Positions 14,826 through 34,768 of a stretch of 64,000 bases of DNA are shown here, in pieces; the first letter of the stretch is position 1; each line of letters opens with the position of its first letter. The translations under genes were made by a program, and so were the position numbers. Source of the DNA: a virus; the IMG/VR virus record IMGVR_UViG_3300045119_000180, positions 40,075 through 104,074 of that record; one strand, given 5' to 3'. The notes beneath the pieces are model-generated. The model had not been told where the DNA came from. It searched no databases and was given only the letters and a program-made list of their open reading frames with translations.

Positions 14826-14899
14826 TGGCCTCTAGCATAACCGGTAATTGCGTCGTCCTGTTAAGACGAAGGATCTCTGTTCGAATCAGAGGGGGCCAG
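14826..14899 (+). tRNA. tRNA-Asn (GTT anticodon)
   Basis: Full cloverleaf. The acceptor TGGCCTC pairs with GGGGCCA (one G-T). The D-arm has a GG-containing loop. The anticodon stem TCGTC/GACGA has loop CTGTTAA, so the anticodon is GTT. The T-arm is CTCTG, TTCGAAT, CAGAG. Discriminator is G and CCA is not encoded. It lies between two coding genes in the same direction. Confidence 0.93.
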
Positions 14900-14909
14900 C
14901 TGAGGAGTT

Positions 14910-31725: not shown

Positions 31726-31959
31726 ATGGTTACCCAGATCAGGGCCTCTTCGGAGGCCCGGAACCTCGAAGTTGAAGTGGTTACGATGGCGTTAGCAGAA
31801 GTGGTTTTAAACGGAGACGTAAGTCTAGAAAGCGTGATGTCGGGTATCCAAGCTTTTCTTATGGCGTTGGTAGCTTCTGGCCAGGCGGACGCCGGCCCAG
31901 TTGGTTGCCATTTACACGAGATGGCTCCATTCTTCGAAAGCATGAAAAATAAAGCTTGA
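31726..31959 (+). CDS. Small acidic helical protein, unknown
   Basis: 77 aa with AAAGGA before the ATG. Alanine-rich helices (VVTMALAEVVL, IQAFLMALVASG). Its stop codon lies inside the -35 box of the integrase promoter. No family recognised. Confidence 0.6.
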   Translation: MVTQIRASSEARNLEVEVVTMALAEVVLNGDVSLESVMSGIQAFLMALVASGQADAGPVGCHLHEMAPFFESMKNKA

Positions 31960-31983
31960 CAAACCGATGTTCATTGCTATAAT
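31956..31983 (+). promoter_or_regulatory. Consensus promoter giving a leaderless integrase mRNA
   Basis: TTGACA at 31956-31961 and TATAAT at 31978-31983, both perfect, 16 bp apart. Only 6 nt separate the -10 box from the integrase ATG at 31990, so transcription should start at or next to the ATG. No Shine-Dalgarno is present. Confidence 0.8.
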
Positions 31984-31989
31984 GAAGCT

Positions 31990-32916
31990 ATGAACATCAA
32001 ACAGCAGTCTGAAATTTACATACGTCTTTTGACTAGTCGGAAGCGTAATCCGGCTAAACCTTCAACTCTTAATAGCTATAATTGCTATTTAAGACGGTGG
32101 ATCGTGCCAGAAATAGGTTCTATTGATTTAATAGACTACGAAAATGGCGCGATGAAAGACTTTATAGTTAAACTGGATGAAGCCGGACTGTCCCCGGCTA
32201 CCATTGCAGGTATTCAGAATTGTGTTAAGGGTATTGTTTCCAGTGCAGTAGACGAAAACGGTAATGAAATTTATGCTAGAAAATGGAATACTGAGTTCAT
32301 TGATGCTCCGCCGGTTGTAGCAAAAGATCAAAAAGCACCTACAATAACGTCACAAAAGCTCCAGGAAGCGATATCTAAAGCCGAGGCTCCGTTCGGTCAA
32401 CTGTTGGCTTTTCTAGCCGGATCGGGGCTGAGAGTGGGCGAGATGCAGGCTTTAAAGGTAGGTCCACAGGTTAAATCAAGTTATTGGGATCCCGATGAAA
32501 GTAAGCTGGTCGTCCGGATGACGATTTACCGCGGTAAAGAGCAAACGACCAAAACGCCAGCTGGCAACCGGGAAGTGGATATCTGCAGCACATTGAACGA
32601 CCTGCTGAAGGGGTTAAACCGTAAAGACGGCGAATGGTTGTTCCACGGCCGTACAAATGGCGTTATCAGGCCGATGACGGTATACGAAAAGGCGAAACAA
32701 CTGGAGATTCCGCCTGTTCATAGCCTTCGAAGGTTCCGATTGACGTATCTTGAGAATTCCGGGGCGCCTATGAGTCTGGTTAAGTTCTGGGCCGGCCATG
32801 CAACAGGGGATATCACGGAGCGGTATATCAAGTCGCGGGAGAATATCCAACTGAGAAAAGATTGGGTTGAGAAGATAGGATTAGGATTCAACTTAAAAGG
32901 AGAACAAAATGACTAG
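31990..32916 (+). CDS. Tyrosine recombinase (integrase), short form
   Basis: 308 aa. Core-binding domain at residues 1-110, catalytic domain after. Catalytic residues: Arg in GSGLRVGEM near 147, His and Arg in VHSLRRFR near 243-246, His in WAGHATGD near 265, Tyr in ERYIK near 275. It lacks the roughly 100-residue N-terminal region present in the convergent second recombinase, to which it is clearly related (shared RKW..E.IDAP and RRFR segments). Likely leaderless. It points at the attP candidate and probably catalyses integration or excision. Confidence 0.88.
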   Translation: MNIKQQSEIYIRLLTSRKRNPAKPSTLNSYNCYLRRWIVPEIGSIDLIDYENGAMKDFIVKLDEAGLSPATIAGIQNCVKGIVSSAVDENGNEIYARKWNTEFIDAPPVVAKDQKAPTITSQKLQEAISKAEAPFGQLLAFLAGSGLRVGEMQALKVGPQVKSSYWDPDESKLVVRMTIYRGKEQTTKTPAGNREVDICSTLNDLLKGLNRKDGEWLFHGRTNGVIRPMTVYEKAKQLEIPPVHSLRRFRLTYLENSGAPMSLVKFWAGHATGDITERYIKSRENIQLRKDWVEKIGLGFNLKGEQND

Positions 32917-33097
32917 TAAAGAAATACGTGAGTTGCCTACATCTCTAACGGGGGAGTACGGCGAAGGTCAGCTTGACGCTACGCAAAATAGAAAGGTAGA
33001 ACTTATGTTGTTGCAAGAGATAGCCGCCCAACTGGCCGAGGCTAACGAATTACGGCGTAGCTCGGCAGATGCAGTGGGAAGGACTGGGCCGCGATGA
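32909..33097 (+). CDS. Small protein following the integrase, excisionase candidate
   Basis: 62 aa with AAAAGGAG before the ATG and 8-nt overlap with the integrase. Charged and helical (RKVELMLLQEIAAQLAEAN). Its stop is directly beside the left arm repeats of the attP candidate. Size and position suit a directionality factor, but no winged-helix motif is obvious. Confidence 0.55.
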   Translation: MTSKEIRELPTSLTGEYGEGQLDATQNRKVELMLLQEIAAQLAEANELRRSSADAVGRTGPR

Positions 33098-33098
33098 G

Positions 33099-33278
33099 TA
33101 GGCCAAGTAGGCCAATTGAAGGCCATATCCGAGACTTAAGTGATTGCAAATCCTCGAGTTATGTGTTCTTAAGTCTCGATATGGCGGAAGCACGGGAAAC
33201 TGTCTGACCGAATAACTAGTTTCTTTTCTGTATCTAAGCGGACTTTCGTAGTCCGATGAGTTGGCCAGGTTGGCCAGG
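33099..33278. other. Candidate phage attachment site (attP)
   Basis: Between the ends of two convergent recombinase genes. Left arm: TAGGCCAAGTAGGCCAA (33099-33115), a tandem repeat. Right arm: TTGGCCAGGTTGGCCAGG (33261-33278), tandem and inverted relative to the left. In the middle a long inverted repeat encloses GATTGCAAATCC (33142-33153), matching the anticodon-loop region of bacterial tRNA-Cys (TTGCAAA with GCA anticodon). The layout fits arm sites around a crossover core. The host site is inferred. Confidence 0.6.
33122..33185. repeat. Long inverted repeat, 18-19 bp arms
   Basis: GCCATATCCGAGACTTAAG (33122-33140) and CTTAAGTCTCGATATGGC (33168-33185) are complementary with one extra C in the left arm; the 27-nt centre contains CTCGAG. 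No T-run follows either arm, so it is not an ordinary terminator. It may be the core recombinase binding site. Confidence 0.88.
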
Positions 33279-34484
33279 TAAAGTAAATCCCATACCAAGC
33301 CGTTCAGCCCACTCAAGCCTTATTGGTCGATCATTCAAAAGATGCACATACGTCTCGGAGATGTGCGTCTGCGCGTGCCCGGACCAGAAGTGCTGGAGCG
33401 ACTTTGGTACGGGGGACAGGTCAATGTGCTTCATCCGGAACCGGCGGAAGATGTTAAAGCCGCCGATCGGTAGGTTCAACTGTTTCAGTACCGGGTGCAG
33501 GTGGTCGTTGAGAAGGTTCGCCTGACTCAGTTGTGTCCCTTTCGTGTTCTGGAACAACAGGCCAGATGCCCTCGAGCCAACGTGGTTGCGTAGCATGTCT
33601 GCGAGTTCCGTGCACAGGTCTACTTCCCTTTCACCGTTCTTGGTTTTGAGGTACGGCTGGATAACACCTCGTTTGGCTTTCTGGTTGATGACGAGGGTTC
33701 TGAAGTCACCCGATATGTGACGAATTTCGAGTCCAAGAGCCTCTCCAACTCTAAGAGGTCCGCATCCGGCAAGGAGCGCATATAAGACTCCAATCTGGCC
33801 TGGGCTATTTCGGATAATTGCCGAGATTCCTTCGGCGTCAACTGTAGGTTGATTTTGGTCTTTGACGATTGGCGCATCGATATATTCCTCTTTCCACTTT
33901 CTTGGGAATAGTTCTTCACCGTTGTCGTCGATCGCAGATGCAACGACGAGTTTGGCGATAAGCGTATAGTCGCGGATTGAAGACGCGGCAAGGTTGGCGC
34001 CGACGAAGTATTCAACCAATTCCTTCATCGTACGGTTGGAGATAGCAGAGAGCAGTTCGGGGCCAATTCGGGGGTAGAGCCACTTGTCAAGTGTGTAGCG
34101 GCGGTTAGATATGGTTGTAGCTTCAAGCGGGTTGCGTTTGCGATTGGCCAACAACTTTAGCCATTGTTCGCCTTGCTGCTGGAAGGTGACATTAGACGTC
34201 GATTCGATGAAGGTTTGGTTAGAGTTGATACCGAGAGTTTCGAGCCGCTGACTAGCAGCCCTAGTTGCGATCGTCCTGGTCCGGCAGGGTCCGAGAGATA
34301 CAACTTCCCGCCGGCGGGATCCGTTCGCGTCTCGCCAAAATTGCAGATATGCTGGTGCGATTGGATCCCAGATGTCCGTAATCCTACGTCCTTTCTGAAA
34401 TACATAACCCTTTTGGTAAGAACGCCTTGCCAAAGAAGGCCCTCGCTTTCTGCGAGGAATTGCAATCGCGGACAACTCTATCAT
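33234..34484 (-). CDS. Tyrosine recombinase (integrase), long form with N-terminal domain
   Basis: 416 aa. Residues 1-95 are a basic N-terminal region likely to bind arm sites, 96-210 the core-binding domain, and the rest the catalytic domain. Arg lies in GCGPLRVGEAL; the second box reads GFNIFRRFR with Asn where His of HxxR is expected; FWSGHA and ETYVHL supply His and Tyr. It is paralogous to the plus-strand recombinase and convergent with it. The right arm repeats lie in its 3' end. The His-to-Asn change may weaken catalysis. Confidence 0.85.
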   Translation of the reverse strand: MIELSAIAIPRRKRGPSLARRSYQKGYVFQKGRRITDIWDPIAPAYLQFWRDANGSRRREVVSLGPCRTRTIATRAASQRLETLGINSNQTFIESTSNVTFQQQGEQWLKLLANRKRNPLEATTISNRRYTLDKWLYPRIGPELLSAISNRTMKELVEYFVGANLAASSIRDYTLIAKLVVASAIDDNGEELFPRKWKEEYIDAPIVKDQNQPTVDAEGISAIIRNSPGQIGVLYALLAGCGPLRVGEALGLEIRHISGDFRTLVINQKAKRGVIQPYLKTKNGEREVDLCTELADMLRNHVGSRASGLLFQNTKGTQLSQANLLNDHLHPVLKQLNLPIGGFNIFRRFRMKHIDLSPVPKSLQHFWSGHAQTHISETYVHLLNDRPIRLEWAERLGMGFTLPGQPGQLIGLRKSA

Positions 34485-34768
34485 AAAGCTCTTTTCGCGG
34501 CCTTCTTTAATTTTGCGGCTAGTTGATCTTCAGCTTTATCGCCAGGCGTCCTTAAAATTTCTTCTTTCGCTGCGATAGGAACGGAAGTCTTTTCATGCGT
34601 TGTTTCGTAACAAAGTACGCAAACGACGTAATACGGCGTTTCGGTTTCTAACCTATGGCATCCGGCGATACATTCAGGATGAGGGTTGAGCTTTATAACG
34701 TCGTAACACTCTTTCGTTACGTGTCTAAACGCCGGCCCGCGTACTTCCAATCTAACGCAAACGCACAT
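34481..34768 (-). CDS. Cysteine-rich zinc-binding protein, unknown
   Basis: 95 aa. HPECIAGCH and CVLCYETTH suggest a zinc site, and the tail is a Lys/Ala helix. It overlaps the long integrase start (ATGA), so the two are probably coexpressed. No family recognised. Confidence 0.6.
   Translation of the reverse strand: MCVCVRLEVRGPAFRHVTKECYDVIKLNPHPECIAGCHRLETETPYYVVCVLCYETTHEKTSVPIAAKEEILRTPGDKAEDQLAAKLKKAAKRAL

Follow-up and report, generated by a model that had tools for sequence, protein, structure and literature searches.

An attP candidate with a conserved accessory box and no tRNA half in a circularly mapping phage

We consider it likely that positions 33098-33277 of the window, the whole 64,000-nt stretch analysed here (positions 40075-104074 of a 104,074-bp IMG/VR virus record), form the intact attP of a soil phage with a circular map and are used by the long tyrosine recombinase P0002, with a crossover near 33176-33186, an accessory box, a tRNA half that was lost or replaced and, probably, a non-tRNA target. 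The start of the record is repeated exactly over 127 bp at its end, and the phage genome is thus a closed circle of ~103.9 kb whose attP is intact and unintegrated; likewise, the presence of P and P' arms on either side of a single core, taken with the terminal repeat, indicates an unintegrated circle. In the proposed mechanism, P0002 would bind the tandem 9-bp repeats that flank the core, the P' repeats in the end of its own gene and the P repeats on the far side, and would exchange strands between them. Between the crossover and the P arm, the inverted repeat together with the CAATCACTTA box would act as an accessory element conserved in the integrase clade, most likely as a binding site for a protein, putatively a directionality factor, a nucleoid protein or the integrase. 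The relatives insert into tRNA anticodon loops and bring a matching tRNA half, which the window phage appears to have lost or replaced.

Table 1. Features of the recombination locus, in window coordinates.
Feature	Position	Strand	Remarks
Consensus promoter TTGACA-16-TATAAT	31956..31983	+	Directly 5' of P0001; 12/12 match, TG ahead of second hexamer
P0001, short tyrosine recombinase	31990..32916	+	308 aa, without N-terminal arm-binding domain; PF00589 6.5e-7; phrog_1 1.1e-27
Small ORF	32909..33097	+	62 aa, overlaps P0001 end; no Pfam match
P-arm tandem repeats TTGGCCTAC x2	33098..33115	-	9-bp units; like kind and orientation on relatives' P sides
Inverted-repeat arm, P side	33122..33140	.	19 nt, one bulged C
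Conserved P-side box CAATCACTTA	33137..33146	-	Overlaps GATTGCAAATCC (33142-33153) on opposite strand
Inverted-repeat loop	33141..33167	.	27 nt
Inverted-repeat arm, integrase side	33168..33185	.	18 nt
Predicted strand-exchange region	33176..33186	.	Inferred position, set by constant spacings and by alignment A3
P' segment from the crossover to the P0002 stop	33187..33233	.	Site of the tRNA half in relatives; no tRNA at this place in the phage
P0002, long tyrosine recombinase	33234..34484	-	416 aa, extra N-terminal domain; phrog_1 1.8e-17
P'-arm tandem repeats CTGGCCAAC x2	33260..33277	-	9-bp units; within 3' end of P0002 gene
Small ORF	34481..34768	-	95 aa, overlaps P0002 start; no Pfam match

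The preliminary description had reported an 18-19 bp inverted repeat around a 27-nt centre with two recombinase genes converging on it, and we confirmed both (Table 1). P0001 scores above the Pfam cut-off and P0002 below it; P0002 carries the invariant catalytic residues of the tyrosine recombinases (R245, K280, R348/R350, H370 and Y379 in alignment A2), and its extra N-terminal domain was seen by alignment. In P0002 and the relatives at tRNA-Ala(CGC), the H of HxxR is replaced by N. The 95-aa ORF probably shares the P0002 operon, and the 62-aa ORF might possibly encode a directionality factor. A further inverted repeat (GATGTTCAT / ATGAACATC, 31966-31998) overlaps the promoter and start of P0001 and is a possible operator. 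Six related viruses (G400, G401, G411, G414, G417 and G418, some of whose records may be incomplete) have a P0001 orthologue and no P0002, and P0001 groups with these orthologues in the tree. P0001 is an integrase-like gene conserved across the phage group, and from its distribution P0002 and its attP look acquired. Single-protein scans of IMG/VR gave no match; P0002 was not found in the phage and plasmid collections, nor the attP in the phage collection.

To place P0002, we compared it with integrases from Acidobacteriota MAGs whose genes end beside tRNA-Ala(CGC). It is 57-62% identical to these and is nested within their clade (tree support 100/100; inner forks 94/82 and 95/82), while other members of the family lie at tRNA-Pro, -Arg, -Asn, -Ala(TGC), -Val, -Met and -Lys. 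Orphan tRNA halves that end at the anticodon loop were observed for tRNA-Pro (G116), tRNA-Arg (G104 and G402) and, in many copies, tRNA-Ala(CGC) (G001, G003, G168 and G234), which places strand exchange of the family in the anticodon loop. Hence the general expectation that tyrosine recombinases use such loops holds for the P0002 family. A similar repeat pair, in the same orientation, lies on the far side of these halves, just as in the window; the relatives' full attP was assembled across family members, with P' arms and P sides taken mostly from different element copies. The G001 MAG contains at least nine orphan tRNA-Ala(CGC) 3' halves, three of them within 12 kb of contig C131 (L281-L283), a record of repeated insertion at one tRNA type. 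At L032 (G061:C216) and L010 (G001:C128), family integrases converge on tRNA-Asn genes from both sides, and L085 (G402:C1:4102-42362) looks like a nested integration, in which an element with a short integrase occupies a tRNA-Arg(TCG) that another element had used before.

Tandem arm repeats do flank the centre on both sides, as first described, but the two pairs are direct and not inverted copies of one another (80% identity over 30 nt, CGATGAGT included); they appear inverted because GGCC is palindromic. This direct orientation matches that in the relatives, and arm-type repeats on both sides of a core are the arrangement of a lambda-type attP. The motif YTGGSCNACYTGGSCNAC, composed from both window arm pairs and those of the relatives, is restricted to the two tandem-repeat sites in the whole record. 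A tandem 8-10-bp repeat occurs near the 3' end of the family int genes and beats all control windows of its own gene in 11 of 16, the window included. The inter-arm length is 144 bp, compared with ~148 bp expected from summing the relatives' spacings.

The inverted repeat folds well as DNA (z = -5.2; none of 200 shuffles was equally good) and is one of only two in the 104-kb record that combine 11 or more perfect pairs with a loop no longer than 60 nt. An Rfam search returned no match, and the hairpin arms were found in 0 of 299 genomes and once in IMG/VR, about the chance expectation; the exact 18-nt core has two matches in IMG/VR, neither within a tRNA nor in an att-like context. We rejected a folded site of the attC type, as judged by eye, since the GTTRRRY/RYYYAAC boxes are absent from the outer ends. 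In the relatives, the P side of the tRNA-Ala(CGC) elements bears a conserved box, CA(A/G)TC(A/G)(C/G)TTAG, exactly 38 nt past the anticodon loop and 18-22 nt ahead of the P arm at 14 scored orphan sites, which include groups of near-identical copies and may represent six or seven independent cases. In the window, CAATCACTTA occurs once in 64 kb and lies 19 nt from the P arm; 5 of 2000 shuffles reached as long an exact match (10 nt) with the family consensus. An inverted repeat surrounds the box in most, not all, of the relatives' sites (at the orphan sites L272 and L287 the repeat or the box is not clear); that of the window is longer, and its integrase-side arm is shifted by ~10 bp. Transferring the 38-nt distance from the relatives, we predict the window crossover ~33 bp from GATTGCAAATCC. 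Arms, box and position thus agree with the relatives' att sites and support, by sequence comparison, the reading of the locus as an attP. Integrase family, arms, box and the absence of a tRNA half are established in this way, whereas the crossover position, the protein at the box and the present target are predictions.

These spacings bear directly on the proposal that GATTGCAAATCC is the crossover core and that the phage integrates at a host tRNA-Cys, in its anticodon loop, which we now regard as extremely improbable. The 12-nt GATTGCAAATCC is present in the centre of the inverted repeat, and we take it to fit an E. coli-type tRNA-Cys anticodon arm, which counts for the proposal, as do the use of anticodon loops by the family and the distant integrases beside tRNA-Cys (G001:C123 and G084:C743). 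However, the tRNA-like matches of this stretch to host-clade tRNAs are no better than chance, and the host-clade tRNA-Cys (sequence TCTGCAAAACC, reading GGTCTGCAAAACC) differs from the core, the host clade being taken, from the integrase alone, as the Acidobacteriota clade of its relatives. Among 250 genomes of the class, no tRNA was found to combine TTGCAAATCC with a T-arm; of three pattern matches, one was examined with ARAGORN and the others were judged non-tRNA by spacing. None of the typed close relatives lies at tRNA-Cys, and the phage has neither a tRNA half that would restore the gene nor a tRNA-Cys of its own. The 27-nt centre suggested as core overlaps the P-side box, which accounts for GATTGCAAATCC and whose distance to the crossover is 38 nt in the relatives. 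The stretch read as a tRNA-Cys core is more probably an accessory sequence, conserved in the integrase clade and adjacent to the crossover. The hairpin could also be a transcription terminator that serves the convergent gene blocks in both directions and has nothing to do with recombination: the two blocks meet there, and as RNA either strand folds well. Yet it has no T-run and received no call as an intrinsic terminator, it is absent 3' of the P0001 orthologues in G400 and G401, and position, box and arms agree with att sites; we give this explanation hardly any weight.

The missing tRNA half leaves three alternatives: a non-tRNA target, a short core of the kind used in tRNA-dependent lysogeny, or a relic site. 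Inter-arm DNA matched 82 host-clade tRNAs (31 anticodon types, an incomplete set) no better than shuffles did, and no tRNA fragment was found across the whole record with the same set; as a control, G402 gave 45/45 nt to tRNA-Arg(TCG). The attP thus carries no gene-rebuilding tRNA half, and the sole phage tRNA is tRNA-Asn (14826-14900). The related 100-105 kb viruses G400 and G401 (L155, L160 and L161) each carry ~30 tRNA genes along with a tmRNA, compared with this single tRNA-Asn. A tRNA-Leu(UAA) target was rejected: the stretch 61-67 nt past the P0002 stop is CTTAAGA, but host loops read ACTTAAAATCC. BLAST of the inter-arm DNA against 399 genomes found no attB; the best matches (18-51 nt) lie in unrelated genes and cluster at GC-rich parts of the query, partly at common GGSTG coding motifs. 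As no integrated copy of the phage was seen either, we infer the attP function of the locus. In tRNA-dependent lysogeny, known from other phages (PMC10865867), a short core (~10 bp) in a tRNA gene is not rebuilt and a phage tRNA substitutes; the lack of a tRNA half and the phage tRNA-Asn, a tRNA that family members do enter, speak for it. But the tRNA-Asn loop sequence CTGTTAA is absent at the predicted crossover and the phage has no tRNA-Ala or tRNA-Cys, and we judge this very unlikely. That P0002 was picked up and the site has since decayed with its tRNA half into a non-working relic would fit that same lack and the six related viruses with P0001 and no P0002; against it, the P0002 reading frame is intact with its invariant family residues, as are arms, box and spacing, and we hold a relic to be unlikely. 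A bolder idea, which we consider rather improbable, is that native P0001 and acquired P0002 act jointly on an attP moved off tRNA genes, the long inverted repeat being a shared regulatory or structural element and the P-side box an undescribed family-specific attP element. We favour an intact attP used by P0002, for which the loss or replacement of the tRNA half makes a non-tRNA target probable.

In conclusion, the tRNA-Cys guess gives way to a testable attP map, and a phage that keeps the attP architecture while dispensing with the tRNA half would be a natural example of a switch in target. A second outcome is the definition of an integrase family that is widespread in Acidobacteriota, has inserted many times at single tRNA genes and shares a fixed att-site architecture; orphan tRNA halves mark the boundaries of its elements.

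Among known systems, the phages with tRNA-dependent lysogeny (PMC10865867) resemble the window in an attP without a tRNA half, but the window phage lacks a cognate tRNA for Cys or Ala and encodes only tRNA-Asn. Anticodon-loop integrases are a sublocation class of Williams 2002, following the summary in PMC8371274; like them, the P0002 relatives recombine within the anticodon loop and restore the tRNA, whereas the window attP has no tRNA half. With lambda-type tyrosine integrases and their attP (PF00589), the locus shares the catalytic domain, the extra N-terminal domain and paired arm-type repeats flanking a core. Unlike a lambda-type attP, it has its P' arm repeats inside the integrase gene, bears a conserved inverted repeat with the CAATCACTTA box in the interval from the core to the P arm, and has no identified host factor site.
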